Source: a virus
IMG/VR virus record: IMGVR_UViG_3300042992_001231
Location: 1 to 48,066 of that record
Strand: one strand, 5' to 3'
DNA: 48,066 nt
Shown here piece by piece: positions 9,144 to 43,363 of this stretch (position 1 is its first letter; the number at the start of each line of letters is the position of its first letter). The notes under the pieces were generated by a model that was given only the letters and a program-made list of their open reading frames with translations, searched no databases and was not told where the DNA came from. The translations under genes and the position numbers were made by a program.

Positions 9144-9844
9144 GGACGCAGGCGTTCGGCTGGGGTGTAGGTCACGGGGTAGCGCCCCGAGGCGCTGAAG
9201 TGGAAGGTCGGGGCCACGTTGTACCGCTCGGTGAGCACGTACCCAAGCGGGGCAAGCAGGGCGCTGATGCTTTCCAGCACCGGCTCGTCCCATATCTCGA
9301 TGAAGAGTTCCGGCTTGCAACGGCGGATGGTCTGCATCGCCCCAGCAAGTGCTGCCTCCTCCATGCCCTCCACGTCCAGCTTGATCACGCGCACGTCATC
9401 GGCTTCCTGCACGTGGTTGTCGATCTTGGCGATGGCAATCCCGGCCTCGCAGCCTTCGTCCGGCGTGAGTTCCCACTGGCAGTTCTTCCCAGTGCCTCCC
9501 AGCTTGGCCGATGCGTAGCCCTCCTCCCGGCCAACGCCCTCCTGAATCACCAGGACCTTTCCGCCACGGTCGAAGTGTGCCACGTTGAAGATGAGCAGTT
9601 CGGCGTTGACCTCCATCGGCTCGAAGGCAATCACCTGATCCGCCCAGAGTGCGAAGGGCAGCGTATGGTTCCCCACGTTGGCCCCTGCATCAATCCATAC
9701 TCCGCCGCGTGGAAGGTTCCGTTCCATCCAGTCGAGCATGTGGTGTTCGCAGAGCTCCCCATTCCGGTAGTGCGTCTCCATGATCTCGTCGTCCACGCGG
9801 ATGTCGAACGTGTGGCCGTAGCGGTGGACTTGGTAGGTGTTCAT
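9140..9844 (-). CDS. FkbM-family SAM-dependent methyltransferase
   Basis: A 234-residue protein starting at ATG 9844. The SAM-binding motif I is GGVWIDAGANVGNHTL (about residues 47-62), followed by VIAFEPMEVNAELL, and later VRVIKLDVEGMEEAAL. These are the characteristic motifs of FkbM methyltransferases, which usually O-methylate sugars or small molecules. It lies between glycosyltransferase genes with 4-bp overlaps, so methylation of a transferred sugar is the most likely job. The extended frame upstream was rejected as antisense-like. Confidence 0.88.
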   Translation of the reverse strand: MNTYQVHRYGHTFDIRVDDEIMETHYRNGELCEHHMLDWMERNLPRGGVWIDAGANVGNHTLPFALWADQVIAFEPMEVNAELLIFNVAHFDRGGKVLVIQEGVGREEGYASAKLGGTGKNCQWELTPDEGCEAGIAIAKIDNHVQEADDVRVIKLDVEGMEEAALAGAMQTIRRCKPELFIEIWDEPVLESISALLAPLGYVLTERYNVAPTFHFSASGRYPVTYTPAERLRP

Positions 9845-10455
9845 GCGTTTCGGGGGAATAGGTACCCGGCCGTCTGGCCGTCGTGGTGTTCGTTGCCGAT
9901 GGTGCTCTCCGTGGTTCCGATATGGTCGACGAGGCTGGGGACGTGGAAGAACAGGCGCGTGCCGGTCCTGCGCATGGCCTCGAACAGAACGGAGTCCGGC
10001 TTGCGGGCCAAAGTCTCCGGGGCCTCCTCCATCACATCCTGCATCACCTCGGCCACAGCTTGGGCCAGCCAGCAAGGCATGATCACGGAACCGCCCCATA
10101 GGTGGTAGTGCGGTTCGACCTCCAGCCAGCCTCGCTCCTCCCTTCGGTCGTGGGGTATGTTCTGTTCTATGGTCCACAGGCTGTACCCCGACCGGTAGAA
10201 GCGCAGCGGGGATGTGATGCGAAGAAGGAACGACTGGTCGAAGATCAGGTCGTCATCCACCACGACCATCAGTTCGGGGCCTTCGCCTTGTGCAAGGTCG
10301 CGCATGGCCCGGATCAGGTTGCGCGTGGGGCCGAACTCTCCGCCGTCGGCGTAGACCTTCACTTGGCCGATACCAGCGGCGTGAAGCGATGCGATGGTGG
10401 CCGGAAGCGTGCAGCGTTGCGAGGCGGTATAGTGGATGATGCCGACGCGGATCAT
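9841..10455 (-). CDS. Glycosyltransferase, GT-A-like
   Basis: A 204-residue protein. It opens with MIRVGIIHYTASQRCTLPATI and has a clear acidic metal-binding motif, LMVVVDDDLIFDQSFL, near residue 62. HLWGGSVIMPCW and a later FHVPSLVDHIGTTES fit acceptor-side loops with an imperfect catalytic histidine/aspartate arrangement. The gene overlaps neighbours by 4 bp. The GT-A fold assignment is from motifs; donor and acceptor are unknown. Confidence 0.75.
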   Translation of the reverse strand: MIRVGIIHYTASQRCTLPATIASLHAAGIGQVKVYADGGEFGPTRNLIRAMRDLAQGEGPELMVVVDDDLIFDQSFLLRITSPLRFYRSGYSLWTIEQNIPHDRREERGWLEVEPHYHLWGGSVIMPCWLAQAVAEVMQDVMEEAPETLARKPDSVLFEAMRRTGTRLFFHVPSLVDHIGTTESTIGNEHHDGQTAGYLFPRNA

Positions 10456-11357
10456 TTCAGCAGGCGGATTAGGTTCTCCTCAAATGCCGCCCCGTCCTTC
10501 AGGTACTGCTCCCGCGCATGGCCGCCAAGTTCCACCAGCAGGGGAAGCGGGCACGCCATAGCAGACCGGATGCAATGCGCCAAGGCTTGAGGGTCAACGT
10601 GCTGGTGGGTAGCCAAGTTCTGCCATCCACGTGAAGCTACCCCAGCCAAAAGGCCGAATTCCCCGCCGACCAACTCATCCATCGGGTGCCCAGCCGTGGA
10701 GATGATTACCGCACCCGCCGACCGGGCCTCGTTGATATAGTGCCCGAAGCCCTCGTAGGAAGAGGGGCAGACGTGCACCGCGTGTTCGTTCATCAGCCGC
10801 TTCAATTCGGCCGCGTCCTGCCTGCCGAGCACCGTGACGTTATCCGGGGGCGATGCAATCGGGTTCTTCGTGACCATCGTCAGGTGCAGACCGGGAAGCA
10901 TACGCATGGCCTCGATCACCGCCGCCGTGCCCTTGGCCGAGGAACCGCCCGCCACGTGCAGCAGCGCCCGCTTGCGCTCCACCGTTGGGTCGTGCATGTC
11001 GAAGGAACTCCAGCCCGTGTACTGCACGTCGCGGTGCAAGCCTTGGAAGATGCGCTCACAGTCCCGCGTCTTGGCCCATACCTGGGTAAGCCCGTGCAAA
11101 TGTGGTCGCCATTCCCGCACGAACCATTCGGGGTTTGGGACCAAGATGTTCCGCTTGGCGCTCTGGTAGTGGTTCGGGTTCAGAAGCTCGATGAAGATGT
11201 TCACGTCGAAAGACCCCGCCGCCGATGGCTTGGCCTGCCAGTCCACCGAACTCACCTGCATGGCCTCCCCGCTGATCCCCACCAACGCCGAGCGCAGCAC
11301 CTGCATATCGTGGGTGAGGCCCAGTCCGTTGTCGCGGCTGATCAGTTGGACGCGCAT
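10452..11357 (-). CDS. Glycosyltransferase, GT-B (GT4-like)
   Basis: A 301-residue protein starting at ATG 11357, which overlaps the upstream stop (TGATG). The C-terminal half has the GT4 E-x7-E signature in CPSSYEGFGHYINEARSAG, followed by VIISTAGHPMDEL, and a preceding ALLHVAGGSSAKGTAAVIEA nucleotide-binding segment. The N-terminal acceptor domain is short compared with typical GT4 enzymes of about 370 residues, so it may be a trimmed phage version. It is one of four glycosyltransferases in this block. Confidence 0.85.
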   Translation of the reverse strand: MRVQLISRDNGLGLTHDMQVLRSALVGISGEAMQVSSVDWQAKPSAAGSFDVNIFIELLNPNHYQSAKRNILVPNPEWFVREWRPHLHGLTQVWAKTRDCERIFQGLHRDVQYTGWSSFDMHDPTVERKRALLHVAGGSSAKGTAAVIEAMRMLPGLHLTMVTKNPIASPPDNVTVLGRQDAAELKRLMNEHAVHVCPSSYEGFGHYINEARSAGAVIISTAGHPMDELVGGEFGLLAGVASRGWQNLATHQHVDPQALAHCIRSAMACPLPLLVELGGHAREQYLKDGAAFEENLIRLLK

Positions 11358-12154
11358 CACAGATCGTATAGGCGTGGAACGTGCATGACGAAATAAGCGC
11401 CGCCCGTGATGTGCACCGGCTCGAAGTAGTTCTTCAGGTGCCTGAAGTACTGCCGGTCGTGGTCGTAACCGTTCGCCGGGTGCCGATACACGATGTCCGG
11501 CCAGTAGGTGCGCTGGTCCCGCACGTGCACGATGTTGCTGCACCCGATTCCGTTGGACCGCGTATCCGAGGCAAGGCGCTCCTGCCAGGCGCTGCCGTTC
11601 CATACCCGGTCGCAGCACAGACCAACGTCCGGCATTCTTGCATCCAACAGCCCATCGTGCAGGGTCTGCAAGTCCTCCGGCCCCAGCATGTCGTCGCTGT
11701 CAATGTAGCGGATGTACTGCCCGGTGCCCTTCATGATCCCGACCGACCTGGGCACCCCGCTCCACAGCCGCTGCTTGGCGACCTTCAGCACCCGGATGCG
11801 TGGGTCCCTGTCCAGGATGTGGTCCCGCAGCGCCCAGGTGGCCTCGCAGCCGTCCGCCACAATCACCAACTCCCAGCTTTGGAAGTGCTGGTCCTTCACC
11901 GACTGGATCGCCCGCAGCAGCTTTACCTGCCGGTCCACCGCCGACCGGCCGTAGTTGCCCGAGTACTCCCCGAGGAAGACCGGCATGACCAATGTGAAGA
12001 AGGGGGCGCTCACCGGGTCGAAGGTATGGGCTGGGCCGTGAACTGGAAAGGCCCCGTGAGGAGCCTTCCCGCCCGTGGTGAGCAACCATGCAGTCCTGTG
12101 TGACCAAACCTGCCCGGGGATGGCGCAAAGGTAGGCATCATTTCGGTTCGGCAT
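11357..12154 (-). CDS. Family 2 glycosyltransferase
   Basis: A protein of up to 265 residues. From residue about 52 it reads PFFTLVMPVFLGEYSGNYGR, then WELVIVADGCE, then the DxD region IRYIDSDDMLGPEDL, a textbook GT2 (GT-A) layout. The first 48 residues do not look like the family, and a GTG at 12013 would give a more usual start; the start is therefore uncertain. First sugar gene of the island in transcription order. Acceptor and sugar are unknown. Confidence 0.85.
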   Translation of the reverse strand: MPNRNDAYLCAIPGQVWSHRTAWLLTTGGKAPHGAFPVHGPAHTFDPVSAPFFTLVMPVFLGEYSGNYGRSAVDRQVKLLRAIQSVKDQHFQSWELVIVADGCEATWALRDHILDRDPRIRVLKVAKQRLWSGVPRSVGIMKGTGQYIRYIDSDDMLGPEDLQTLHDGLLDARMPDVGLCCDRVWNGSAWQERLASDTRSNGIGCSNIVHVRDQRTYWPDIVYRHPANGYDHDRQYFRHLKNYFEPVHITGGAYFVMHVPRLYDL

Positions 12155-24422: not shown

Positions 24423-24875
24423 TTACAGGGTCTTGTATTCGGTTTTCGCGTTGAAGCACGGGCAGGCTTTCATCCACTCGTTCGGGGTGATGATACCGTC
24501 CTTGTTCAGGTCCTTGCTCAGGTCGCGGTGGCCCATAATGATGGCCTTTGGATAGCGTGCCTTCAGGTCCTTCAGCAGCTTTTGCAGGCTCGTGCGCTGC
24601 TTCTCCGTGCGGGTGTCCTTGGGCTTCGTTGCGCGGTCCAGCCCGCCAACATAGGCGATGCCGATGCTGTTCGCGTTGTAGCCTTCCACGTGGGCCCCGA
24701 CACTGGCCTCCGGACGTCCGGTCCTCACCGTGCCGTCCAGCTTCACCAAGTAGTGGTAGCCGATGGTGCGGAAACCACGGGCCTTGTGCCACTGGGTCAC
24801 CTCCGCGATGTCGTGGTCCCGGCCCTCTATTGTTGCCGTGCAGTGCAGGACGATATGGGTGATGGTGCGGCCCAT
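24423..24875 (-). CDS. Endolysin, N-acetylmuramoyl-L-alanine amidase
   Basis: A 150-residue amidase_2 (T7 lysozyme-like) protein. Zinc ligands and surroundings are visible as HIVLHCTATIEGRDHDI, GYHYLVKLDGTV, VGAHVEGYNANSIGIAYVGG and IIMGHRDLS. After the last ligand comes an EF-hand-like DLNKDGIITPNEW and then KACPCFNA, a layout known in phages of Bacteroidota. There is no signal peptide, so a holin or other membrane lesion is needed for release. Confidence 0.93.
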   Translation of the reverse strand: MGRTITHIVLHCTATIEGRDHDIAEVTQWHKARGFRTIGYHYLVKLDGTVRTGRPEASVGAHVEGYNANSIGIAYVGGLDRATKPKDTRTEKQRTSLQKLLKDLKARYPKAIIMGHRDLSKDLNKDGIITPNEWMKACPCFNAKTEYKTL

Positions 24876-26175: not shown

Positions 26176-26730
26176 TCATATCTCAATGGCGATGCGCATC
26201 GCCCAGCCACCGTCAGACTGGCGAACGAACGCGGAACGCAGAAGGGTTTCCGTGGGGGTCACGTCATCGCAGTCGAGCGGGTCGCCAGAGCCAACATCAA
26301 CAGACCGCATTGCGTAATTTCTGAAGGCTATGTCAGACACAAGGCTACCCTTAATCCTCTCCGAAAGGCTAACGGCATCATCCTCGCAAGACTGTATGCA
26401 GGCTGTCTCGCCTATATAGCTCCAGATAGCCATACCATACACCCCGGGATCTTCTTCCGTTGGATACATCAGACCTTGTAGAATGGTTTCGATACCCTGC
26501 TGCTCTTCGCAATCTATAAGCGGAGGGTCTGAAGGCCCATTGACCTGTGCTACTAAGCGCCCGTCAACGATGGCTCCGGACAGCTGCGTGAAAATAGGCG
26601 CACGGCGGCAATCGAATTCGGAACGAAGGAAGTAAGAACTCTGGTCGACCGCGATGGCTATGCAGTCGACGCCAGCTTGCTTACGCATAGCGCCGCGCAG
26701 CAAAGTTTCCAGTGCTGCGGGGGTGCACAT
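26176..26730 (-). CDS. Protein of Cys-headed tandem repeats
   Basis: A 184-residue protein built from about five units of 33-41 residues, each beginning at a cysteine (positions 2, 41, 74, 115, 154), often preceded by Asp. The best-preserved units have a helix such as LETLLRGAMRKQ, IETILQGLMYP or TETLLRSAFVRQ, followed by a strand ending AIAV, MAIW or AIEI. It overlaps the next gene, which has two such units, by one base. It lies between tail and lysis genes, so a tail or lysis-linked role is possible. I know of no family with this pattern. Confidence 0.7.
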   Translation of the reverse strand: MCTPAALETLLRGAMRKQAGVDCIAIAVDQSSYFLRSEFDCRRAPIFTQLSGAIVDGRLVAQVNGPSDPPLIDCEEQQGIETILQGLMYPTEEDPGVYGMAIWSYIGETACIQSCEDDAVSLSERIKGSLVSDIAFRNYAMRSVDVGSGDPLDCDDVTPTETLLRSAFVRQSDGGWAMRIAIEI

Positions 26731-26969
26731 TACGCTTCTTCGATGAAGATCAAGGCAGGCTCACCGGACGTGCTCAGGCCGATGGCGTAGCGCAGGATCA
26801 TTTCGTCGCCCAGATTGTACTCCGCGCAGCCAATCACCGGCTCAATGTTGGCGGCGGCGGCGGTAACCCGCTTAATGCGGATGCCAGTCACGCCAAGGTT
26901 GGTGCGCACCAGCAGGCTGTTGACCAGTTCCTCTTGGCTGATGTGGGGGTTGTTGCAGTCGATCGCCAT
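26730..26969 (-). CDS. Two-repeat relative of the upstream protein
   Basis: A 79-residue protein with two units: one starting at Cys5 (HISQEELVNSLLVRTNLGV then RIKRV) and one starting at Cys48 (DEMILRYAIGLSTSG then ALIFIEE). Both follow the helix-strand pattern of the larger 26730 protein (26176-26730). The two proteins probably act together or compete for the same partner. Confidence 0.68.
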   Translation of the reverse strand: MAIDCNNPHISQEELVNSLLVRTNLGVTGIRIKRVTAAAANIEPVIGCAEYNLGDEMILRYAIGLSTSGEPALIFIEEA

Positions 26970-26988: not shown

Positions 26989-27543
26989 TTACGCGATCGG
27001 GTTGGTGATGCGCAGAGGAGCCAACTGAGCCGCCCACTTCACCTCGAAGTTGAGGGTGGCGTACTCCAGATCGTCCTCCACGATCTCCTCCCAGCCTCGG
27101 AAGTTGACAAGGATACCGTTGTTGCCACCGTAGAGCTTGGTGCCCAAAGTGGCGTACCACATGCGGTACTGGCGGTTGCAGCCGGTCCCACGCATGAAGT
27201 CGTAGTTCGTGTCGCTGTTGTCGTCGATGCGGCCCGTCAGGGTGCGCTCGGCAGGGCTGAAGACCTTGCGGCCTCCGCTGATCTTCTTCTCCGTCTGGCT
27301 CGGGGCGGCGATGCTGCCGATCACGATCAGTTCGCGGATCGCGTTGGCATTCGCACTGGAGTTGTCGATGCGGCTGGCCCACTCGGCAGGATCCGCCCAG
27401 TTGGTCAGCGGGTACCCGTCGTTCGCCAGGTAGATCACGCTGATCTGGGCCTGGAGCAGTTGCGGGTTGCAGGTGGAGAACTCCACCGTGGGCAGTACCG
27501 CGCTGCAATCGGTGGGACAGATGAGGGTGTCTACGGATGCCAT
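26989..27543 (-). CDS. Structural protein (putative)
   Basis: A 184-residue protein from ATG 27543, the first gene after the terminator at 27583-27611. It has a Cys/Thr-rich N-terminus (TLICPTDCSAVLP) and a central alternating region with WADPAEWASRIDN and FRGWEEIVEDDLEYATLNFE. The size, beta content and position next to tail genes suggest a tail or baseplate structural protein; Bacteroidota phages encode similar proteins here. The leader is A-rich (ACAAACGCACAAATCC). Confidence 0.62.
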   Translation of the reverse strand: MASVDTLICPTDCSAVLPTVEFSTCNPQLLQAQISVIYLANDGYPLTNWADPAEWASRIDNSSANANAIRELIVIGSIAAPSQTEKKISGGRKVFSPAERTLTGRIDDNSDTNYDFMRGTGCNRQYRMWYATLGTKLYGGNNGILVNFRGWEEIVEDDLEYATLNFEVKWAAQLAPLRITNPIA

Positions 27544-27582
27544 TGGCGTTGGATTTGTGCGTTTGTCGCTGTACAAAGGAAA

Positions 27583-27611
27583 GCGGGCGCAAGGTCTCTC
27601 CCTACGCCCGC
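27583..27611 (-). terminator. Terminator after the tail operon
   Basis: Hairpin with stem GCGGGCG/CGCCCGC, plus an inner AGG/CCT pairing around a TCTCT/AGAGA loop, followed on the minus strand by TTTCC. It lies 26 bp after the stop of the 29925 gene. It shares an overall plan with the terminator at 42274-42297. Confidence 0.75.
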
Positions 27612-27621
27612 CGTTCAATTA

Positions 27622-27636: not shown

Positions 27637-29925
27637 TTACGGGGTGCGCACTTCGCTCAATGCCCAGTCGCATCCAGTTCGCCACGCAGAGCGAACGCGG
27701 TACTGGTAGGTGGTGGCTCCTATGATTTCTGCCGCCCCGCTGATGCTGTATATTCCACCAGAGATGGACTGTTGGATGTCAATCCATGGCCCAGTGCCAT
27801 CAACCTGAACCTGTGCATCGATAGGCTCAATCTGTGCTCCAACGAAGATGCCACCGGAGCCCAAGACGGTCGCAGTGACTCCGAACTCATCGGCGAAACC
27901 GAAGGAAAACTCCAAGCACTCGCACGGCAGCGCATCGGATCGGCTGGATACGAACGTACATTCATCGGCACCAATTAGCGTGATGCGGATTGAAACCGCA
28001 TCGATCGGAGGTGTTATTTGAACCCCGGAGAGCAACTCGCCTTGCGTGAAGAGCATGTCCGTGATCGGCGTCCATGTTCCGCTATCGATGTCCGTGTAGT
28101 CCAGCCGCACTGAGTAGCCCGGCATCGTCAATGCGGTCACCGTGTATGTCGCTGGGACGCTCTCGCAGTTGATGGGCGTGATGGCGATGAACTCAGCGGA
28201 TGGAAGCCATTCTCCCGATCGGTAGTACCAATAGCTGGTCTCGGTGTCTGTGCTAATCCGGGCAAAGCGATACGGGCAGGCCAGTCGCGATCCGAACTCC
28301 AGAGGGTCCTGCACAGTTACCTGAGCCACTGTGCCATCCGTCATCAGATAGTACTCACCCTCCACGTATGGCGTCTCCTCGCTCTCCAGCCCTGCGGCAG
28401 TAAAGCATACCGGCAAGCACGGATGATCAAACTGTCCGCAACAGGCCCCGGTCACCGCAGCCTCGTCTACTTGGAACTTGAGCTCCACAAACGCCTTGCA
28501 CTGCGCTCCTACCTCGTCCCAATCGTGCTCGATGCGCAGCGCCTTGATCGGAACGGTGCCAAGCCCACGGGCAAGGGTCAGGGTGATGGTGTCGTGCAGC
28601 GGGACCTGGGTGAGAGCGTCCAGGATGTGCCAGGGCACGTACCCGATCTGGATGGTGTACTCGATGTCCGTGCGCCGGAAGGTCTCCACGCGATTCTGGT
28701 TGGCATCCTCCTCCACCTCAATCGTCGTGGTGGGTTCTGGCGTCTGGATGAACGCCTCGCTGGGAAGGATGAGCGCTTGGTCGAAGCCCTCCTCGTAGTA
28801 GGTGTTGCCGACGTTGCCGCAGGAGGTCCAGTTCAGCACAATGTGGCAGTCGAGGCTATCATCTGCGCAGGTGGTGGTGATGCTGGTCACGTCCATCACG
28901 CATGGCACGTCCGGCGTTCCAGCGACCACGTGGATGGTGTAGGTGCTGTCCCCAACGAAGGCGTCGATGGTTGCCGACCCTGCCCCGCTGTCGTACTGCT
29001 CACTTTCGGCCACCACATTGCCATCGCCGTCCCATACCTCCAGGTGGAAGGTGCCAACGCTCACCGATACGGCAAACTCGAAGCGCACCCATCGCCCGAA
29101 GCACTCCACCTCGTCCAATCGGCGACCGATGGCCATGGGCTGGTAGTTCTGCCCGAAGATCCCGATGTAGTCCGTGGCAACGGCAGCAATGAGCGGCGGG
29201 GGAGCGGATAGCCAGTTGACCCCGTTGAAGGTGTGCTGGGTGCCCGCGTCCTCGTTGTACCACACGTCGTAGTTCTCCCCCGGTGGCCGTCCGCTGGTCC
29301 ATGCGCCATTGATGTACCGCCACAGGTCGCCCGTGGTCAGGTTTGCGACCTGAGAACCCTCGAAGACCCAATCCGGGTTGGAAGGTGCCCCGCCACCGGT
29401 GTACATGCCGGAAAGCAGGTAGGCGTACCGGGTGATGCTCCAGGGTGCGTCAGGGGCCAGGGCGACGCTGTACAGGTCGCCGTCGATGGTGATGGTGCCG
29501 GTCTCGCCCGTGTAGGACGGGGAGGCAGCCGGGCAAAGGGGGCGGAAGACCTCGCTGTAATAGGACTGCCCACCGGCCAGGATCACCGCGTACATGGCCT
29601 GTTGGGGGATCTGGACCGAGAAGACCCCTCCCGAGTAGATGAGGTAATTGTACGAGGTGAACGGCACCAAGGACAGCAGACCGGCCTGGCCTGTGATGTT
29701 GGCGATCTCCGTGTCGTTCAGGTCGTACAGCTTCCACGAAGTGATGGCCGTCACGCTGGTGGGCACCCAAAGCTGGAAGGGCGGCATCGCATCGTTGGGG
29801 GCCAGGATGGCGTAGTCGCAGTCCGCGTCCCGGCAGGGGACCGTGTTTCGGGACTGCTCCAGCAGGGTGCGGTACCAGCGCAGTGGCGTCTTCACTTGGC
29901 CGTTCAGAGCCGGGAATGTTGGCAT
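27637..29925 (-). CDS. Large tail-tip / minor structural protein
   Basis: A 762-residue, beta-rich, Cys-containing protein, last gene of the tail operon. Segments such as VRFEFAVSVSVGTFHLEVWD, NRVETFRRTDIEYTIQIGY and the GACCGQFDHPCLPVCF cluster suggest several immunoglobulin- or fibronectin-like domains. Thr/Ser/Gly-rich stretches fit an extracellular role. Following the tape measure and a 613-residue tail protein, it is probably a distal tail or adhesin protein. No specific family recognised. Confidence 0.7.
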   Translation of the reverse strand: MPTFPALNGQVKTPLRWYRTLLEQSRNTVPCRDADCDYAILAPNDAMPPFQLWVPTSVTAITSWKLYDLNDTEIANITGQAGLLSLVPFTSYNYLIYSGGVFSVQIPQQAMYAVILAGGQSYYSEVFRPLCPAASPSYTGETGTITIDGDLYSVALAPDAPWSITRYAYLLSGMYTGGGAPSNPDWVFEGSQVANLTTGDLWRYINGAWTSGRPPGENYDVWYNEDAGTQHTFNGVNWLSAPPPLIAAVATDYIGIFGQNYQPMAIGRRLDEVECFGRWVRFEFAVSVSVGTFHLEVWDGDGNVVAESEQYDSGAGSATIDAFVGDSTYTIHVVAGTPDVPCVMDVTSITTTCADDSLDCHIVLNWTSCGNVGNTYYEEGFDQALILPSEAFIQTPEPTTTIEVEEDANQNRVETFRRTDIEYTIQIGYVPWHILDALTQVPLHDTITLTLARGLGTVPIKALRIEHDWDEVGAQCKAFVELKFQVDEAAVTGACCGQFDHPCLPVCFTAAGLESEETPYVEGEYYLMTDGTVAQVTVQDPLEFGSRLACPYRFARISTDTETSYWYYRSGEWLPSAEFIAITPINCESVPATYTVTALTMPGYSVRLDYTDIDSGTWTPITDMLFTQGELLSGVQITPPIDAVSIRITLIGADECTFVSSRSDALPCECLEFSFGFADEFGVTATVLGSGGIFVGAQIEPIDAQVQVDGTGPWIDIQQSISGGIYSISGAAEIIGATTYQYRVRSAWRTGCDWALSEVRTP

Positions 29926-29940
29926 GGCTTGGATGTATTT

Positions 29941-31782
29941 TCAGTAGGCGTATCTGAGGACGAAGGTAGTCCGGCCGGTTTGGATGTCATGGTCGGCGCT
30001 CACCACCTCGGCCCGCACGATGCCCAGCCTTGCGCCCAAGCGTGTGCTCAGGTATTCCCGCGCATCGAAGTCCGACAGGCCGCAGCACATGGGAAGCGAC
30101 AGCCCCTCCTGCTCGATGTTCGGGCGGAACCCATCGAAGGTCACGTCCTGTCCGTTCATGTTGCCGCTGGGCAGGTACCTGTTCCACGTCCAGAAGTCCC
30201 GCTGAAGGTTGGCCCATGACAGGGGCGCGTTGGTAATCATCGTGCCGGTGATGGCCCCCGTGTCGATGATCGTGTCGTACACGACCGTGTTGAAGGTGGT
30301 GGCCAGCAGCACGAAGCCCTGCTTGCTGATCGCGTCGGGGTCTGCAAACACGAAGTTGATGTCCGTGGTCACCTGTCCCGGGTCGTACTGCTGAGTGTTT
30401 TCTCCCACGCAAGCGCCCGAATAGATGATGTCCCTGCCTATAAAGTCCCGGTTCTGGGCCTCCATCCACTGCGCTCGTTCGATGCGCGGAATCTCGTCGC
30501 CGAGGTGCTTGTACTTCAGAAACTCGATTGCCCCGGATAACGTGGCCGCATCAAGGCCAGGTTGGCTCTGCCAGTACTTCCAGTGCTCGATGCGGATGAA
30601 GCCTTGGTCGTCGATGTCCCAGAACACCTGGTGGGTGACCAGCAGCATGGCCAGCATGTCCTTCAAAGTGGTCTCGCCGATGGTCGCCGGGTTTGATGCG
30701 CTGGGGTCCATGGCATCGGACTTCTGGACGATCAGCAGGTGGGCGTGCTGGTTCGGCGTTCCCGTGACGTAGTTCTCCCCGGCCACGTATCCGGGAGCAT
30801 CTCCCACGGGGTCCCACGCGAAGAAGTCCGAGCGGATGCCTGCAAGGTCCGTGCACCCGGTCTGTTCGATCAGGTACTCGAAGGCGTCCTTCAGCACCCG
30901 GGCGCGGTTCACCTCCGTAGGGGTTCCGTCCGACAGGCAGATGTAGAACGGCACGATGCCCGGAGGGTCAGCAATAAGGCTGAAGTCGAAGGTGCCGATC
31001 TCCAGGAAGTTACAGGTATCGGGCGGTGGTTCGGGGTATCCGTCCCCGTCAAGGAAGAACTGCGGGTCGCCCCACGTGTATGAAATCAGCGGCGTGCGGT
31101 AGTACTTGGCCGTGCCGTTGGTCGCGCAGTTGTCCTCCAACAGCGTCCAGCCAGCACCAGGTGGGGGGACAGGGTTTCCATTTATGCACTCCGTGACGCC
31201 GACCTCCCTCCATAAGACGGCAAGGTTTGGGCCGCCTACAATGGGAATGAATGCATGAACGGCAGTGAAGCCTGTGTCGTCGATGCTTCCGCAGATCGGT
31301 ATCCCTCCGATAATCTCGCACAGGATGAACTCCAAAGAAGGCAGGACCACCACGTTGGCGTCCACCGGCTCCACTTGCAGGATGTTCCGCTTCACACCAT
31401 ACGCATCCAGCAGGCAAGAGTAACGGTCCAGCGGCTTGGTCTTCACCGTAGCCCGGCAGTGGTCGAGGTCGAACTCGCAGGACCCGCTGGAGAACTCCCC
31501 GCGCCATACTTCCCGCCACGAACCGCTGCACTTCTGGTCCAGCCGAAGGATCAGATCCGAGCACCGGCGAAAGGGGTCGCGCTCGAAGTTCAACAGCCAT
31601 TGGTAGTCCACACCGCTGAACACGGGGTCGGTGGACAGCTTCCGCCTTGCGAAGACCTGCCCGGTCTCGATATTGCGGCTGTCCTGAAGGCGGATGTTCG
31701 CCCCGTTGTCTGGCACCACGGTTGTCCATGTGGTGCCCCCGTCATCGGAGACCTGAAACCGCTTGGGGATGGGCGTGGTCAT
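29941..31782 (-). CDS. Distal tail / baseplate protein
   Basis: A 613-residue protein following the tape measure with a 4-bp overlap. The start, KRFQVSDDGGTTWTTVVPDN, and RFADP-like segments (e.g. ILRLDQKCSGSWREVWRGEF) resemble distal tail proteins that join tube to tip. A CTDLAGIRSDFF segment and several Trp-rich parts follow. Assigned by position and size; the exact role is not certain. Confidence 0.7.
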   Translation of the reverse strand: MTTPIPKRFQVSDDGGTTWTTVVPDNGANIRLQDSRNIETGQVFARRKLSTDPVFSGVDYQWLLNFERDPFRRCSDLILRLDQKCSGSWREVWRGEFSSGSCEFDLDHCRATVKTKPLDRYSCLLDAYGVKRNILQVEPVDANVVVLPSLEFILCEIIGGIPICGSIDDTGFTAVHAFIPIVGGPNLAVLWREVGVTECINGNPVPPPGAGWTLLEDNCATNGTAKYYRTPLISYTWGDPQFFLDGDGYPEPPPDTCNFLEIGTFDFSLIADPPGIVPFYICLSDGTPTEVNRARVLKDAFEYLIEQTGCTDLAGIRSDFFAWDPVGDAPGYVAGENYVTGTPNQHAHLLIVQKSDAMDPSASNPATIGETTLKDMLAMLLVTHQVFWDIDDQGFIRIEHWKYWQSQPGLDAATLSGAIEFLKYKHLGDEIPRIERAQWMEAQNRDFIGRDIIYSGACVGENTQQYDPGQVTTDINFVFADPDAISKQGFVLLATTFNTVVYDTIIDTGAITGTMITNAPLSWANLQRDFWTWNRYLPSGNMNGQDVTFDGFRPNIEQEGLSLPMCCGLSDFDAREYLSTRLGARLGIVRAEVVSADHDIQTGRTTFVLRYAY

Positions 31783-34700: not shown

Positions 34701-35204
34701 TTCGATGCCCACGGCACGCACCTCATCGCGGATAGCATCGTACTCCGCTGCCGTCAGCTTCACGCTCTTGGCAATCTCCTGCTGGGACTTGACGGCGGTG
34801 GCCCCCAAGCTGGTGAGTGATGCCTTACCGCTGGTGGATGCAGTGCGGGCCGATGCCGCGATGGCCTCAAGGTTATCGGATGCCTTGGTCGTCTGGTCGG
34901 AGACTCCCTTGACGGATGCCTCCAGCCCCTTGGTGGATGCCGTGGCCGCGTCAATGCCCTTGACGAAGCCGCCCGTATTGGATGCCGCCACCGCCTTGCC
35001 CAGCGCCGTCACGACCTTGGTGCCACCCTCTACGGCCTTGCTGAACTGCTGCGCATCCTTGGCGCTGTCCTTTAGGTCCGCCTGGATGCCGTCAGTCGCC
35101 TTCCCGGTCTCGGTCCGAAGCTGCCCCACGGCCTGAGCCATTGCCCGAAGGTCGTCGAACAGACTTCCCGCCGCCTCGAACTCCAGTTCCACCTTCTTCG
35201 CCAT
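31779..35204 (-). CDS. Tape measure protein
   Basis: A 1141-residue protein with the tape-measure layout: long helical, Ala/Glu/Gln-rich coiled-coil regions and two hydrophobic stretches, around residue 375-400 (LSLLTNPIFLIVAALGALAI) and 960-1000 (AFAQIASIYAFFAKV). The length implies a tail of about 170 nm by the usual rule of roughly 0.15 nm per residue. Such proteins set siphovirus tail length and are ejected during infection. It starts inside the frameshift extension of the chaperone gene (113-bp overlap). The C-terminal WVGGKRHSQGGTVIEAERDE is a common feature in tape measures of Bacteroidota phages. Confidence 0.93.
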   Translation of the reverse strand: MAKKVELEFEAAGSLFDDLRAMAQAVGQLRTETGKATDGIQADLKDSAKDAQQFSKAVEGGTKVVTALGKAVAASNTGGFVKGIDAATASTKGLEASVKGVSDQTTKASDNLEAIAASARTASTSGKASLTSLGATAVKSQQEIAKSVKLTAAEYDAIRDEVRAVGIESEEFVAAIAEAVQELAAAGVEAEDLSADFKQVNDPVVSLQRQLRAAKLEAGALAAEFGLDSEEALKAQQRVAALTDEVGDLTARFDAFNPDKKFEAFNQLQFSLVAGLSAVQQSVGLLAGDNEGLQKVIFGFQSLLFATQSLQQFTGGFGDALKTLRATLGLTSTATAAQTAATVASGTATAAAGTAAAASATGWRAAATAVKAFTLSLLTNPIFLIVAALGALAIAVATSGDDAEKAMKQWDDLFDSLNQFRGISDQTIDLDKQLTDLDIARQRIAASEGDFATARRLVQDSANAEIEAINAKAAARRKDAAELQRGLDVLIATGDLEVDEIRDRQQQIDGILAEASNSYSQTLVVRRAAENELAQIEKEALERAKENAQQRKALNDELVQAAKDLARRLLDAQREAAGQDDPFERARIEREVAQEEVDELQRGFERKLAAIELQKRIGVQAWQDLSDAEKDARADALIDNGDIRLPAQQQEQINALRLLAEERYLEAVDQLLQEQARLRIELIEDSNERERAAFLEGLTTRADDLRKAGVDEVEIRRFIVAEKARFERETALAAIALDEQIQTARVNALQNQGEPEKVFARRKELELLAIKEASAQAQLKIIEGQTGKEAELVRANLAVILAEIARARAELSNNPVKLDLLDLLGVKEADKARVQGAFADIFAATQEIIAAGLEAQQAEVDARIEATDQIIADAQRRRSELTGELERELQAQREGYANNSDAIRAEIDAVNQAERDATAQRKVAIAERQQIARKQVAIDAVTQAAALATSSANLIASFSTLPFGVGLIAAFAQIASIYAFFAKVRAQSRAASQPDQFEDGGWVGGKRHSQGGTVIEAERDEFVVNRKSAGKYAPVIEAINDDDLASLRPPDLKAFLGAMGIRMSDEAVKDVADTHRNERAINLTGGNLKTDRLEQRVVELTNEVKALRADAKAKEEETILPDGTRITKRKGVTTIIRKRKP

Positions 35205-35948
35205 GGCCTTGTGCTTTTTTGATCGTTGCTGTCTTTTCCCGGATGTACTGCTGCTGTGCCCTCAGTGCGTAGAAGAAGTCGAACACGTCCATCGCCCTCC
35301 ACACGTTGGCCTCTCCCATCTTCCCATCGCTGATCGCTGCCATGAGGCCATGGTGTCGGGCCTTTATGCGGGCAATCCGCTGGGGGTAGAACTCGGGTGG
35401 CCCTGCGTGCTTTCCGCCTTCGTCGTCGCCCTTGGTGAAGAACTCAGGGAAGCGGCTCTGTAAGCCGCGAGAAAGCCGGGAATAGAACGCAGGGCAAAGC
35501 CGAAAAAATACCCCATGTCGATGCCCTCGGCCTTCCAGTCGTCAATCTTGTCCTGCACGGTCTGGTCGTCGATCGTGCGCAGGTCCTCCCCGTCACGGAC
35601 CAAGAACAGGGCGCACAGCTTGAGGACCGCGTGGGGCTGGGTGGTGCCCACAAGGGTGCATCCAATCGAAAGGTCATGGAGCAGGACAGCCATCTCAGCA
35701 AACACCTTCTTTCCGGTGGCCACCTCGTTGCACAGTTCAAAGGCCCGGTTGATGCCCCCTTGAATCTCCTCGAAGGTGCGGCCGATGCCAATCTCCGCCT
35801 GGTACAGTTCGTAGGCTTCGTATCGTTCGACCGTCAGGGATGTGACAGCCGTGTACCGCTTGCCGTTGGCATCGAAGGACCGGGTTTCGGGGTCCAGCTT
35901 GCGAAGGCCCACCCAGGTGTGCTCACTTACATTAGGTTCTTGATCCAT
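35092..35948 (-). CDS. Tail assembly chaperone, frameshifted long form (G-T type)
   Basis: A -1 shift on TTTTTTC (35508-35502) would join the first 149 codons of the 35948 gene to a -1 frame that stays open for 136 residues and ends at 35092, inside the tape-measure start. The downstream frame reads RFPEFFTKGDDEGGKH, then PQRIARIKARHHGL and DVFDFFYALRAQQQYIREK, which looks like real protein. This is the lambda G/GT arrangement, where the long form binds the tape measure. The exact slip point is inferred; a site nearer 35455 would keep more of the short-form sequence. Confidence 0.65.
35364..35948 (-). CDS. Tail assembly chaperone, short form (G type)
   Basis: A 194-residue protein from ATG 35948. 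It is alpha/beta, with KRYTAVTSLTVERYEAYELY, an acidic region DLRTIDDQTVQDKIDDWKAE and a DMGYFFGFALRSIPGFL segment. Ending Ser/Thr/Pro-rich without clear structure, its last part may simply be the unshifted tail. Position directly before the tape measure is the standard place for this family. It overlaps the upstream membrane-protein gene by 22 bp. Confidence 0.75.
   Translation of the reverse strand: MDQEPNVSEHTWVGLRKLDPETRSFDANGKRYTAVTSLTVERYEAYELYQAEIGIGRTFEEIQGGINRAFELCNEVATGKKVFAEMAVLLHDLSIGCTLVGTTQPHAVLKLCALFLVRDGEDLRTIDDQTVQDKIDDWKAEGIDMGYFFGFALRSIPGFLAAYRAASLSSSPRATTKAESTQGHPSSTPSGLPA
35502..35508 (-). promoter_or_regulatory. Slippery heptamer for -1 frameshift
   Basis: TTTTTTC on the minus strand is placed as T-TTT-TTC in the zero frame (codons TAT TTT TTC), a classical X-XXY-YYZ slippery site. 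It is followed by GC-rich sequence that could pair. Confidence 0.6.
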
Positions 35949-36277
35949 CGGTAGAGTGCTGTTATGGCGTGGGCGAAGATAACGGCACTGCACGCGGCGA
36001 ACAGGTGGGCAGCGATGGATAGCAGTTCGCAAGACCAAGGCAGCACGATGGAGAAGGACCATAGGGCCAGTTGCCCGCTGAAGCAGTTTTGACAGCTACC
36101 CAGTGGGGAGGCGATCCACGATGTCCATCCGCCGCGCTCATGTGCCCATCGCAGCAGGTCGAACCACTTGTTCAGGGGCGTATCATTCTCGGCCAGCACT
36201 ACGGCATAGACCACACCTACGAAGGCGCAGGCAAGGCCCCAAAGGAAAGCCGTCAGTATCAGCACCGCAGCGGTCAT
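35927..36277 (-). CDS. Membrane protein with CxxC motif
   Basis: A 116-residue protein with transmembrane segments at about residues 3-28 and 69-108 and a conserved-looking loop GSCQNCFSGQLALWSF between them. The CxxCxxxW pattern resembles small DUF1360-like membrane proteins found in phages of this host group. Its place inside the tail operon is odd. Function unknown. Confidence 0.65.
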   Translation of the reverse strand: MTAAVLILTAFLWGLACAFVGVVYAVVLAENDTPLNKWFDLLRWAHERGGWTSWIASPLGSCQNCFSGQLALWSFSIVLPWSCELLSIAAHLFAACSAVIFAHAITALYRWIKNLM

Positions 36278-36495
36278 GGCAGAAGTTCTTGCGGCCAGTC
36301 GGGCGGCTGTGCATTGATCGGTCGGTAAAAGATGCTTTCGGCGGTCTCGTACCAGTCGCCGATGCCCGCGTTGCCGTTGGCGTCCAGCACCACCGAATCA
36401 TGTGTGAAAGCATAGGTCCAATCCGGAGCAGCCACCGGATCCCACTCCACCACGTTGAGGACGTATCCCGATTTGATCACAGCGTATCGTGCCAT
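36274..36495 (-). CDS. Small protein next to adhesin, possible fibre chaperone
   Basis: A 73-residue protein beginning MARYAVIKSGYVLNVVEWD, a strand-rich opening often seen in small proteins encoded next to phage fibres, and containing DWTYAFTHDSVVLDANGNAG. It follows the glycine-rich adhesin-like gene by 4 bp. A fibre-assembly or cap role is inferred from context. Confidence 0.55.
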   Translation of the reverse strand: MARYAVIKSGYVLNVVEWDPVAAPDWTYAFTHDSVVLDANGNAGIGDWYETAESIFYRPINAQPPDWPQELLP

Positions 36496-36499
36496 GCTG

Positions 36500-38875
36500 T
36501 TAGATTTTGTAGATCTCGTAAACGTACACTATCCCAGCACCGCCGTTGCCACCATCACCGCTGATGCCATCACCAACGCCGACCGTGCCACCGCCGCCGC
36601 CGCCACCACCTGCGGAGATAGTACCATTCCCGCCGTTACCAGCATTGGCTATTGCCGTACCTGCACCGCCTCCTCCACCACCGCCGCCAGCACCATTGGT
36701 TGTTGCGACACCATAGGAAGATAGCAGGGTCAGAACGATATTGCCCGTTCCGTCTCCTCCATTGCCAGCACCTGTTGCGCCCAACGCCCCACCGCCAGTT
36801 AAAGCAGTTCCGTTCCAAACATCGCCGCCCGCTCTTGCGGCAGTTGTGTTACCACCGACTTGTCTTGATCCAGCATTGCCACCCGGAGCGCCACCCGGAG
36901 CGCGGCTGTTGTTGGTAGTAAACTGAGGAACACCCGTTGTCGGCCAATAATATCCCGCACACCCACCTACGTTGCCAGCTCGCATAGCTGGATGTCCAAG
37001 CATAATGTTAGATCCTTTCCGTGGCGTACAGCCTGCTATGTCACGCCCTGTTTCGGCACCAATTCCTACGGCTCCACCCAATGCAACAACGTGCGTTCCG
37101 AACGAAGCATCACCGCCAAGGGTGCCAGCGATACCATCACCTGCCGTGTTGCGACCGGGCGCACCAGCACCGCCAGTAGGGACGGTCACAGCCTCCGTGC
37201 CACCCAGCGATGCCGCGGCGATAAAGTCCCACACCACCCAACCGCCACCACCGCCTGATCCGCCTGTTGCCTGTACTGTTGTACCCGCTCGCAGGTCACC
37301 ACATTCACCACCACCACCAGCACCCACGCACACGACGAACGCGCCGACGAACGATGCGTCAGCTGGCTTGTTCCAGGTATCGCTGGCCGTGTACTCTCGA
37401 AGAACGTTAGCGGGTGCTGCCACCACCCATGCACCGCTCACCAGCGAGCCTACATCGTTGCCGTTGCTGTCGTGCACATCCACAGGTGCCGTGGCTCCGC
37501 AAGGGTCGGCCACCGTGCCATACGTCGTGCCGTTGATGGTCACCGTCAGGTCCGCACACGGCACTTCGTTGCCACCGCAGTAGGCACCGATGGTAGCCTG
37601 TTGAACCGTCACACTGGTCGCGCTCCAGTCCGCAAGCCATGGGAAGGTCTCACTTCCCAACGCAGCATCCACATCGCTGCCGGGCTTCACCAGCCTCCAC
37701 CGCGTGCCAGTGTACTCAAGGTTGTGCGAGCCGTCCAACGTATAGATCTCCCGGCCGTTCAGCGTGCCTGTAACGAGATAGGTTCCGGTCACGCTACCAC
37801 CGTCCTGCACATAGGCCGCATCGAGCAACGTGCCGCAGTCAAGGTTTCCCGTCGCACCGCTAGGAACAGTCAGCACAGGCAGACCGTCGAAGGTCACGTC
37901 AGCGTCAGGAGCAACAAGGTCCAGCGATGCGCCACAAGGGTCAACGACCACGCCCGATTCCAGTTCGGTATCGTCGGTGTTGACCAGCGTGTACGAAAGG
38001 TCATCACACGGCGGGCATTCGGGAACCACCCATTGACCGCCTATCAACTCGCCTACGGGAACATCGCCCTGCACTACTTCGACCGAAGCAATCCCACCGC
38101 AAGGGTCTTCGATGGTAGCATACGGCTCACCGTTCACACGAACAGACAGCGGGTCGCACTCCCCGCCATCGCAATCCAAGCACTCAGGACCAAGCTGCTC
38201 CGTTGTCAGGCCCGTCACCGGATCCGTGAGCTCGTCGCAGGTGAACTCCGATGGATTGCGGCGCTTCTTTGTCACCGGAGGCGTCCAGCAGGCATCGTCA
38301 TCGGGTACCGGGGCCTCCTCGCAGCCAGGCTTGATTCGGTAAGTGGCCGTAATGTCAACCGCAAAGGCATCAAAGGGCCAGAGCAGGTACTGACGTGCTG
38401 CTTCCGGGTAGGTGTACTGGCTGAATATCGATGCACCCCGCTGGGGGAATCCATCGACCTGGTGATTCAGCCCGATCAGCGTGTCCGTGTTATACGGCTG
38501 CCCCACGTTCAGGTCGTTCACGAACTGCTCAATGATGCGGTCCGCTGCGTTCGGGTCGCTGCCAAACTTGGCGGTATTCACCCAACAGACCAAACGGAGC
38601 GATGCTGAGTAGAATGTTCCGCGTGTGCGCGTGGATTCGCGGGTCGTTCCACGGTCCTCGAAGTACACCATGCACCCGTATCGGTCATCCGGCACCATGT
38701 CGCGGATCGTGGCAGGGTCGCAGGCATATGCCTCGTCAACGTCACCGGCCACCGGGATCACGATCTCCTTGCCTTCACGCTGCTGCCTGGCAACGCGGGT
38801 AAGCCCGCCGATTTTGTCCACGTAAGTGAACGCGGCGATGCGGTCCTTGAGGATGGTGGCGATGCGGTGGATCAT
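36500..38875 (-). CDS. Tail-completion domain fused to glycine-rich adhesin
   Basis: A 791-residue protein. Residues 1-190 (MIHRIATILKDRIAAFTYVD, GTFYSASLRLVCWVN, LNVGQPYNTDTLIG) look like a neck or tail-terminator-type domain. Residues about 200-540 hold repeated segments of the form VRVNGEPYATIEDPCGG, TVNGTTYGTVADPCG and VVDPCGA, probably tandem beta domains. From about 560 the protein is very glycine-rich (runs of 8 Gly) and ends GAGIVYVYEIYKI, as in phage tail-tip adhesins whose polyglycine loops touch the receptor. A fusion of a neck-type domain with a receptor-binding part would be unusual. Confidence 0.7.
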   Translation of the reverse strand: MIHRIATILKDRIAAFTYVDKIGGLTRVARQQREGKEIVIPVAGDVDEAYACDPATIRDMVPDDRYGCMVYFEDRGTTRESTRTRGTFYSASLRLVCWVNTAKFGSDPNAADRIIEQFVNDLNVGQPYNTDTLIGLNHQVDGFPQRGASIFSQYTYPEAARQYLLWPFDAFAVDITATYRIKPGCEEAPVPDDDACWTPPVTKKRRNPSEFTCDELTDPVTGLTTEQLGPECLDCDGGECDPLSVRVNGEPYATIEDPCGGIASVEVVQGDVPVGELIGGQWVVPECPPCDDLSYTLVNTDDTELESGVVVDPCGASLDLVAPDADVTFDGLPVLTVPSGATGNLDCGTLLDAAYVQDGGSVTGTYLVTGTLNGREIYTLDGSHNLEYTGTRWRLVKPGSDVDAALGSETFPWLADWSATSVTVQQATIGAYCGGNEVPCADLTVTINGTTYGTVADPCGATAPVDVHDSNGNDVGSLVSGAWVVAAPANVLREYTASDTWNKPADASFVGAFVVCVGAGGGGECGDLRAGTTVQATGGSGGGGGWVVWDFIAAASLGGTEAVTVPTGGAGAPGRNTAGDGIAGTLGGDASFGTHVVALGGAVGIGAETGRDIAGCTPRKGSNIMLGHPAMRAGNVGGCAGYYWPTTGVPQFTTNNSRAPGGAPGGNAGSRQVGGNTTAARAGGDVWNGTALTGGGALGATGAGNGGDGTGNIVLTLLSSYGVATTNGAGGGGGGGGAGTAIANAGNGGNGTISAGGGGGGGGTVGVGDGISGDGGNGGAGIVYVYEIYKI

Positions 38876-40458: not shown

Positions 40459-41622
40459 TTAGCTTAGGATTGTGCTCCGGCGCATGCCCCAGCGGTCTTT
40501 GCACCGCCGACAGTCGCCGTAGCTGTTGATGTTCTGCTCCTCGGAAAACTTCACGCACAGGTACCCTTGGATCCCGTCGCTGAAGGTCTTGTTGTAGCTA
40601 TCACGCAACGCCTCAAGCTGGTCGCCTGCCGTCATCGTGTAGCGGTTGATTGATGTGCTTTGCAGGATCTGGGTAATCAGGTTGGCCCCGGCCTTGAACC
40701 GCATGGTGTGGGCCAGCACGTTCATCACCTCGTCGTATCGGTAGTTCGGCGCGTCCGGGCAGAAGGTGCTGCGAATATCGCACTCGAACTGGACCTTGAT
40801 CAGAAGGCCCTGCGTAGCGTTCACCGTACCCCATTCGCTGCGGCGGTCCAGGTCGTTGCCGCTGGTGCCAGCAGCCATGCACCACTCGGCCCAAAGCCTG
40901 CCGTTCTTCTGCTGGATGCTCTGGTACTGCGGCCGGTTCTCGTCCCATGTGGGCCTGAAGCCTCCGCAGCCGCAGGAGCACTCGCTGTTCATTGCCGTCA
41001 GCCCTTCGGTGGGTTCGTACAACGCCCAGAAGCGCGGGTTGCCGGTGCCGAGCTCGCTCATGTCCAAGTCCAGCGGCTCGGGGAGCGTGGTCCATACGAT
41101 GCGGCCGGACGTGGCGGGTAGCGGGTAGGTGATCAGCGGAACGTCACCATCGTACTCCGTGCGGCCGTAGATGCTCACCGGGATCGTTGCGGGGACCGTG
41201 CCCTTGAAGGCCGTGGCGATGGCAACGATACGGAAGTGACCGCCCCGGACCTTCGCGGTCTGGATGGTCATGCCGTGGTACGACTTGGTGAGGCGGTGGG
41301 CTGTCTTGGCGGCGTTCTTCTCGTCGCCGATTACCGCGATGCCATCCTGCCTGCGGGCGTCCGTCCCCGCACCGATGCAGGCCCCGAGCTCGCTGATCGT
41401 GTCCTCGATGCCCGATGCCCGCGCCTTGTCCAGCATGTCCCAAAGGCCACCATCACCGCAGTCCTGCGCGTTGGATAGCAGTTGCAGGGACAGGCCGGGG
41501 AGTTCGTCGAGGAACAGGCCGCTCTCGCTGACGTTGGCCCCCACGGCGATCGGGTCCACGCACGCGCAGTCCTTGCGGGATAACCCGAAGACGTCAGTGA
41601 AGCAGGCGAGGTCGGCGCTCAT
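40459..41622 (-). CDS. Neck / structural protein, Cys-rich
   Basis: A 387-residue protein. N-terminal CFTDVFGLSRKDCACVD, a middle with HFRIVAIATAFKGTVPATI and SIYGRTEYDGDVPLITYPLP, and cysteine clusters NSECSCGCGGFRP and YGDCRRCKDRW. The many cysteines may bind metal. Located among head-tail joining genes, it is probably part of the neck or connector. No family recognised. Confidence 0.65.
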   Translation of the reverse strand: MSADLACFTDVFGLSRKDCACVDPIAVGANVSESGLFLDELPGLSLQLLSNAQDCGDGGLWDMLDKARASGIEDTISELGACIGAGTDARRQDGIAVIGDEKNAAKTAHRLTKSYHGMTIQTAKVRGGHFRIVAIATAFKGTVPATIPVSIYGRTEYDGDVPLITYPLPATSGRIVWTTLPEPLDLDMSELGTGNPRFWALYEPTEGLTAMNSECSCGCGGFRPTWDENRPQYQSIQQKNGRLWAEWCMAAGTSGNDLDRRSEWGTVNATQGLLIKVQFECDIRSTFCPDAPNYRYDEVMNVLAHTMRFKAGANLITQILQSTSINRYTMTAGDQLEALRDSYNKTFSDGIQGYLCVKFSEEQNINSYGDCRRCKDRWGMRRSTILS

Positions 41623-42322: not shown

Positions 42323-43363
42323 TTAGCTCGGCGCGTTGCCGCACACGAACTTCAGCACACCGGTCCGGTCGTTGTCGCATCCCAGAGGGTTCAAGAAGAT
42401 GTCGCCACGGGTCTTGATTTTCCACACGTGCTTCACGTCATCGTTGGCGCACTTCTCCTGGTAGGCCACATCGTACACAATGCCGGGCAGGCTGTTGGAC
42501 GGGATGGTGTACCAACGCTGTGGGCCGTCTGCCGTGTAGATCTCGCGACCTGCTGGACCGTAAGCCTCGTGGCGGGCCTTGGTGGCCATGGCAACGCTGT
42601 TCGGGTTGAACATGAACAGCGCCTTCTCACCCAGGATGGTGTCCATGCGACGGTCGAAGTAGGGCACCCCGAAGGATGTCATCTTCGCCTGGTTGCTGGC
42701 ACCCGTGGGATCGCTGGTCTCCATGCCCACCTTCCACATGTACTGCTTCAGGAGGGTACCGGAGAGCATCTTGCCAGCGGTCAGCTTGTTGATCCACAGC
42801 GCCGTGTCGAAGTACCCGAACAGGTCGGGGTTCCATGCCACGGCAGGGATGTAGGTCTCGCTGCCCACGACGGTGTACTGCCCGTCCGTGAACTTGTTGA
42901 CCCCGGCCGATGCGTTCAGGAACGCGATCGCCTTGGCTGCCCAGAACTCGTCCATCAGCTTCATCTTCTTGAGCAGAGCCCGGGCCACCACCTCCTCCTG
43001 CGTGAGCAAGCTGGTGCGGAACATCTCCTCGGTGACGCTGAAGGACTTCTCGAAGCACTCCGTGAGCTCGTAGTTCACGCAGTTGTCGCCGATCTCGTCC
43101 CCGTCGATCGTGCACTGGTCGGTGCAGTCCTCGGGGTCGGTGTCGTCGCAGTCGTCAACCCAGTAGACCTTCAGTTCGCGGTCCTTCTCGGGGTTCTCCA
43201 GCACCTGGAGTTGTGCGGTCTGGCCGGACAGGATGGCGAGGGCAGGCTCAACGTCGGGGATGTACTCCGCGTTGATGATGCCATCGTTCCAGATTTCGGA
43301 GACCTTGGCCTTGATCTCGAGCAGCTTGGAGCAGTCGAAATTACCGGCGGTTGTAGTTGACAT
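42323..43363 (-). CDS. Major capsid protein
   Basis: A 346-residue protein after the scaffold gene and before a strong terminator, as expected for the most highly expressed gene. Features include KLLEIKAKVSEIWNDGIINA, an acidic Cys-rich segment (WVDDCDDTDPEDCTDQC), FWAAKAIAFLNASAGVNKFT, MFNPNSVAMATKARHEA and PGIVYDVAYQEKCANDD, a pattern common to HK97-fold capsids of Bacteroidota phages. The gene has a 24-bp gap to scaffold. Assigned by synteny and size, with the cysteines perhaps stabilising the shell. Confidence 0.85.
   Translation of the reverse strand: MSTTTAGNFDCSKLLEIKAKVSEIWNDGIINAEYIPDVEPALAILSGQTAQLQVLENPEKDRELKVYWVDDCDDTDPEDCTDQCTIDGDEIGDNCVNYELTECFEKSFSVTEEMFRTSLLTQEEVVARALLKKMKLMDEFWAAKAIAFLNASAGVNKFTDGQYTVVGSETYIPAVAWNPDLFGYFDTALWINKLTAGKMLSGTLLKQYMWKVGMETSDPTGASNQAKMTSFGVPYFDRRMDTILGEKALFMFNPNSVAMATKARHEAYGPAGREIYTADGPQRWYTIPSNSLPGIVYDVAYQEKCANDDVKHVWKIKTRGDIFLNPLGCDNDRTGVLKFVCGNAPS

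Follow-up and report, generated by a model that had tools for sequence, protein, structure and literature searches.

Cysteine-headed repeats in two adjacent tail-module genes of a phage probably infecting Bacteroidota: candidate virion linker proteins

The virus record IMGVR_UViG_3300042992_001231 is a stretch of 48,066 bases with a G+C content of about 61%, which was analyzed at its full length and is called the window here. On its minus strand, the gene order runs from a capsid-like gene through a tape measure gene, a baseplate-like gene of 613 amino acids (aa), and genes of 762, 209, 79, and 184 aa to several small genes and an amidase endolysin gene. Family matches underlie the labels of portal, terminase, tape measure, and amidase; the proteins that we take to be capsid, scaffold-like, gp10-like (175 aa), MuF-like, and baseplate-like were named from gene order and background knowledge of phages. 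The 79-aa and 184-aa genes drew attention because an initial annotation had described them as overlapping genes made of repeats, each headed by a cysteine. They do overlap, by one shared base, the middle A of TAATG. The features of the locus are listed below; the counts after the units are shuffles, out of 500, that reached the score of a held-out profile, one count per phage having the protein.

24423-24875, minus strand: amidase endolysin (PHROG 822, E = 1e-58)
26176-26730, minus strand: open reading frame (ORF) of the 184-aa five-unit protein; 66% identical to its orthologue in locus L002, with 7 of 7 cysteines kept; pN/pS 0.38
26611-26727, minus strand: unit 1 of the 184-aa protein (residues 2-40); 0 and 2 of 500
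26512-26610, minus strand: unit 2 of the 184-aa protein (residues 41-73), without sequence support; 170 and 86 of 500
26389-26511, minus strand: unit 3 of the 184-aa protein (residues 74-114); 0 and 0 of 500
26272-26388, minus strand: unit 4 of the 184-aa protein (residues 115-153); 4 and 5 of 500
26179-26271, minus strand: unit 5 of the 184-aa protein (residues 154-184); 0 and 0 of 500
26730-26969, minus strand: ORF of the 79-aa two-unit protein; orthologues 80% (L002) and 56% (L003) identical; pN/pS 0.26 versus L002
26829-26957, minus strand: unit 1 of the 79-aa protein (residues 5-47); 5, 16, and 0 of 500
26733-26828, minus strand: unit 2 of the 79-aa protein (residues 48-79), weak; 54, 15, and 27 of 500
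26989-27543, minus strand: upstream neighbor and candidate partner; 184 aa from the ATG used by orthologues, 209 aa from a TTG at 27618

The head cysteines stand where they were first annotated, at residues 2, 41, 74, 115, and 154 of the 184-aa protein and at residues 5 and 48 of the 79-aa protein. They are often preceded by Asp, as had also been said, namely, in four of the seven units. The 184-aa protein has two more cysteines, at 23 and 111, which the initial annotation did not mention. With cysteine contents of 3.8% (184 aa) and 2.5% (79 aa), the two proteins are among the richest in the phage, and their pN/pS values show that both are under coding constraint.

Besides the window, two IMG/VR records cover the repeat locus, G001 (locus L002, IMGVR_UViG_3300048586_000088) and G002 (locus L003, IMGVR_UViG_3300049847_000386). 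L002 carries this pair too, again overlapping in TAATG, and its orthologue of the 184-aa protein has 183 aa and seven cysteines. In L003, the 79-aa gene is followed after 59 bases by a 285-aa gene, which encodes five Cys-headed stretches with an 88-aa insert after the third. This 285-aa protein is the counterpart of the 184-aa protein by position and layout only; the alignment of the two is no better than shuffles (21 of 100), and when held out of training the 285-aa protein does not stand out (71 of 1,000 shuffles). The insert (L003 9210-9473) is similar to the N-terminal region of another protein of this phage, baseplate-like and 736 aa long (L003 3276-5486), with a phmmer E value of 1.2e-6 against 9,692 ORFs, and may be a shuffled virion module. 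Between the 79-aa and 285-aa genes lies a perfect, GC-rich hairpin with TTT after it (L003 8844-8868), which looks like a terminator.

The order of the 209-aa gene, the 79-aa gene, and the multi-unit gene is identical in all three phages, whereas the endolysin family differs, being PHROG 822 in the window and PHROG 465 in L002 (E = 8e-24) and L003 (E = 2e-23). The order has stayed constant despite this endolysin exchange, and the pair is therefore inherited with the tail genes. The pair had been placed between tail and lysis genes, and the three-phage comparison puts it on the tail side. The 209-aa neighbor is the most conserved gene of this tail end (92% identity in L002 and 73% in L003) and is probably a tail protein, with no family match in the family libraries or PDB profiles. 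There is no apparent major tail tube gene between the gene of a 791-aa protein and the tape measure gene (window 35204-38875). The conserved 209-aa gene (26989-27618), which lies 3' of the baseplate-like genes, might, by gene order only, encode the missing tail tube protein. The 791-aa protein (window 36500-38875) matches phrog_8145 in its N-terminal part and has a C-terminal glycine-rich domain, PF21722 (residues 500 to 752, E = 4e-7, above its cutoff). Elsewhere in the window, a run of glycosyltransferase-like genes (7712-12154) has homologues in G001 and G002, and 10452-11618 matches Glycos_transf_1 (E = 5e-10).

The initial annotation had counted seven repeat units. A chain of five cysteines spaced 33 to 41 residues apart arose in only 473 of 200,000 random placements of seven cysteines in 184 positions. 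When the seven units were aligned locally in all 21 pairs, the scores added up to 419, compared with 361 ± 16 for shuffles that kept the head cysteines (1,000 for the window), which gives the repeats statistical support (z = 3.5, P = 0.001). The same test gave z = 5.9 in L002 (0 of 400 shuffles) and z = 2.5 in L003 (7 of 400). We also scored each unit with leave-one-unit-out profiles, whose training set excluded the unit under test and its counterparts by position, and compared the scores with 500 shuffles. Ten of 21 units scored at a level reached by at most 5 of the 500. In the 184-aa protein, which two of the phages have, units 1, 3, 4, and 5 were recovered in both; in the 79-aa protein, unit 1 was recovered in two of three phages. 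The stretches of the L003 285-aa protein were mostly unsupported (221, 500, 43, 6, and 94 of 500). The count of seven is thus upheld in part: six units have some sequence support, which is weak for unit 2 of the 79-aa protein, and for unit 2 of the 184-aa protein nothing beyond its cysteine and position supports membership. A profile of the 79-aa units alone scored unit 5 of the 184-aa protein at 15.3 bits in the window and 20.7 bits in L002 (no shuffle out of 500 in either case), an indication that the two genes share an ancestor.

Judged by these tests, we take the repeats of the pair to be real. The unsupported unit 2 of the 184-aa protein and the weak L003 counterpart would suit the opposite explanation, a cysteine-containing protein with accidentally regular spacing and no true repeat. 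Set against the z values in all three phages, the ten held-out units, and the rarity of the cysteine chain among random placements, this explanation is very improbable.

The pattern was one that the initial annotation did not recognize, and no library that we searched contained the repeat. Searches of Pfam, PHROGs, NCBIfam, and PADLOC at the library cutoffs gave no credible match for the family. Low-scoring hits were set aside as chance: the L002 183-aa protein matched NADH-quinone reductase subunit C (E = 0.004; 16 bits, with the cutoff at 630), the L003 79-aa protein an archaeal class III signal peptide (E = 0.048), and the 79-aa protein of the window two PHROGs without known function (E = 0.38 and 0.4). 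PDB profile searches (PDB copy of 2026) returned nothing for the 184-aa protein and 9d01_A as the best hit for the 79-aa family (E = 0.04); the best E value in another PDB profile search was 0.3. AlphaFold modeled the 79-aa protein with low confidence (pLDDT 55), and a helix followed by strands is visible only there; the model of the 184-aa protein (pLDDT 30) was unusable. Foldseek with the 79-aa model gave no hit with an E value below 1 (best, 1.5 and 1.6). Zinc binding was dropped, with one cysteine per unit and no second ligand pattern by eye, as was a signal peptide or lipoprotein, neither protein starting with a hydrophobic stretch by eye.

Relatives outside the three phages were likewise sought. 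Among named phage records, none was found for the 184-aa protein or for the L003 285-aa and 79-aa proteins. The best E value of the unit profile outside the three phages was 0.34 among 9,692 ORFs (110 sequences, many of them duplicates), and in 49 records (from 50 of 64 listed loci) a single match, with an E value of 0.035 over 17 positions, was rejected. Neither the unit profile nor the 79-aa profile matched any of 395 Bacteroidota genomes, probably mostly the same genomes in the two sets, while the positive controls matched. The 209-aa profile matched 2 of 395 such genomes (E = 0.001 to 0.009), and we rejected the first since the surrounding ORFs are chromosomal genes; against 50 records, its one match was the positive control. 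Scans of viral contigs with the 184-aa and the 79-aa queries confirmed nothing, and scans with the 79-aa and the 613-aa alignments returned the same two records. The 209-aa query gave six loci, of which L004 to L007 match over only about 31 to 35 residues; L004 and L006 were rejected as relatives, their ORFs being unrelated. The capsid query gave 4 loci, the amidase query 78, and the terminase alignment 5. Three related records of 11 to 28 kb (G003 to G005), which may be fragments, have no match to either repeat protein, and no match was confirmed in genome contigs with the 613-aa alignment. The repeat family is apparently new as a family, small and uncatalogued, in a rare phage group.

Relatives of the 613-aa protein occur in 35 records from Croceibacter, Bacteroides, and allied phages, with 21 to 28% identity among the 20 of the 35 records listed. 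An amidase search of genome contigs gave 11 loci, which served as controls and centers; 10 of the 11 have Bacteroidota names, and one is labeled Sphingomonas. Because both the 613-aa relatives and the locus names point to Bacteroidota, the host of the phage is probably a member of this phylum. Croceibacter phages P2559S and P2559Y and Bacteroides phages such as B124-14 have a tail region with a relative of the 613-aa protein, which places our phage near Bacteroidota phages. Unlike the window phage, P2559S and P2559Y have no unit matches, and the 12 of their proteins that we counted hold 0 to 1.1% cysteine.

We then compared cysteine conservation between structural and other proteins, a split of our own that partly follows gene order and background knowledge. 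Between the window and G001, 93 of 97 cysteines are kept in 12 structural proteins versus 27 of 48 in 12 other proteins, while overall identity is 64% and 59%, respectively, and the class gaps for Trp, Gly, and Leu are far smaller. Between the window and G002, where the 184-aa protein is unaligned, the counts are 70 of 81 versus 27 of 47. Fisher tests gave P values of 1e-8 (G001) and 5e-4 (G002), or 8e-8 and 1e-3 when the 184-, 79-, and 209-aa proteins were left out. The repeat proteins keep nine of nine cysteines versus L002. This has a chance of about 0.69 at the virion-class rate and 0.006 at the other-class rate, a ratio of about 100 that takes the class rates at face value and treats positions that are not independent as if they were. 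By this measure, the repeat proteins follow virion-type cysteine conservation.

The cysteine share is 2.32% in ten structural proteins (without the tape measure and the 175-aa protein), 1.78% in all twelve, and 1.47% in sixteen other proteins. Cysteine is absent from the tape measure, the scaffold-like protein, and the 175-aa protein, as would be expected if it occurred only where it can be oxidized in the finished particle. The terminase, which is not a virion protein, is also cysteine rich (2.2%) and keeps only 7 of its 11 cysteines. An acidic residue precedes cysteine 29 times in structural proteins, against 13.8 expected, and 9 times in other proteins, against 8.8 expected; going by general chemistry, an acidic neighbor could keep the thiol less reactive before release. 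When 85 loci at least 8 kb long (14 duplicate or off-target loci having been removed) were ranked by the proportion of their long ORFs that reach 2% cysteine, pieces of the three phages took the first seven places; a further piece of G002 (L113) has no such ORFs. Cysteine makes up 2.4 to 3.6% of virion-class proteins encoded at window positions 27637-29925, 29941-31782, 36500-38875, 40459-41622, and 42323-43363. A virion-wide disulfide network in this phage is possible.

Such a network has been demonstrated in the Agrobacterium phage Milano. According to two reports (PMC10491603, PMC10811340), its structural proteins contain 2.1 to 2.4% cysteine and are joined by interchain disulfides, two small linking proteins (LP1 and LP2) are tied by disulfides to a minor capsid protein, and particles break more easily when reduced. 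Our phage is similar to Milano in the cysteine share of its structural proteins, in the conservation of cysteine within the phage group, and in having small proteins that might join larger ones of the virion through cysteines (PMC10491603, PMC10811340). The Milano tail is contractile, and LP1 and LP2 sit on the capsid, at least LP1 with an Ig-type domain, whereas our pair lies in the tail module and is built of Cys-headed units of 31 to 43 residues. The likeness to LP1 and LP2 is drawn from description rather than from homology, and the disulfides, demonstrated in Milano, are a prediction for our phage. Searches of open-licence literature, judged by title and opening of the abstract, brought up the Milano papers and nothing about phage tail proteins with Cys-headed repeats or about Bacteroidota phages with disulfide networks.

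We propose, with a probability of about 0.42, that the two proteins belong to the tail module as small linkers or decorations associated with the virion, in a tailed phage whose particle would be covalently reinforced by cysteines. Each unit would be a small bead, probably of one helix and a beta-hairpin, with the conserved cysteine at its head. On leaving the reducing cytoplasm at lysis, the head cysteines would form disulfides to tail or baseplate neighbors or to one another, and a protein of several units would act as a multivalent staple, for which the 209-aa neighbor may be the natural partner. The 184-aa protein and its L002 orthologue each have an odd number of cysteines, seven, and therefore at least one must be unpaired within the chain. 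The proposal draws on the repeats, the co-inheritance with tail genes, the cysteine conservation, the excess of acidic residues before cysteine, the baseplate-like insert in L003, and the Milano precedent. Against it stand the absence of homology to known virion proteins, the shuffle-level alignment of the L003 285-aa protein with the 184-aa protein, the cysteine-rich terminase, and the 79-aa protein having cysteine at two positions only. The mechanism would probably be a variant of the known disulfide-stitched virion. Its fuller form, with a new alpha-beta-beta staple unit that bears a single reactive cysteine and whose copy number sets the cross-links, in a Bacteroidota-phage disulfide network independent of Milano, we regard as doubtful.

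Other roles have to be weighed against the linker proposal. At this end of the tail module, divergence is fastest in the multi-unit gene; tblastn at an E value of 1e-4 against G002 finds the 79-aa and 209-aa genes (56% and 73%) and not the 184-aa gene, and the L003 counterpart gained an insert related to a baseplate-like protein. This would fit a receptor-binding or adsorption accessory, in which the multi-unit protein is exposed at the tail tip and the repeats scaffold variable loops or inserted domains. We consider it unlikely: the sister protein of 79 aa shows strong conservation (pN/pS 0.26) and lacks a variable loop, the 184-aa protein does not evolve faster versus L002 (0.38) than the 762-aa protein, the tape measure, and the terminase (0.42 to 0.50), and the family libraries revealed no carbohydrate-binding or fiber domain. 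The pair could also act in assembly without being part of the virion, serving the 209-, 762-, or 613-aa protein as chaperone or scaffold and leaving before the particle is complete. Its small size, acidic character, and late-operon position directly 3' of the tail genes agree with this, as does a start that overlaps the partner's stop. Yet the proteins classed as internal or transient, such as the tape measure and the scaffold-like protein, are free of cysteine, whereas the repeat proteins are among the richest (3.8% and 2.5%) and keep every one, so that this role seems improbable as well.

Phages often carry accessory genes at the junction of tail and lysis modules, and the pair is orphan sequence at that junction, with no structural homologue found. 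A nonstructural accessory function, such as host takeover, superinfection exclusion, or counterdefense, is nevertheless quite unlikely, as the three phages covering the locus have all retained the pair, with gene order unchanged and the same tail gene beside it, and as PADLOC gave no match and the cysteine conservation is of the virion kind.

If the linker proposal is true, virion-wide disulfide reinforcement, which our literature searches met only for an Agrobacterium phage group, would have arisen also in phages of Bacteroidota, and the number of repeats could act as a dial for the number of cross-links. Comparing cysteine conservation between virion and other proteins would then offer a simple sequence test by which orphan phage genes could be assigned to the particle.
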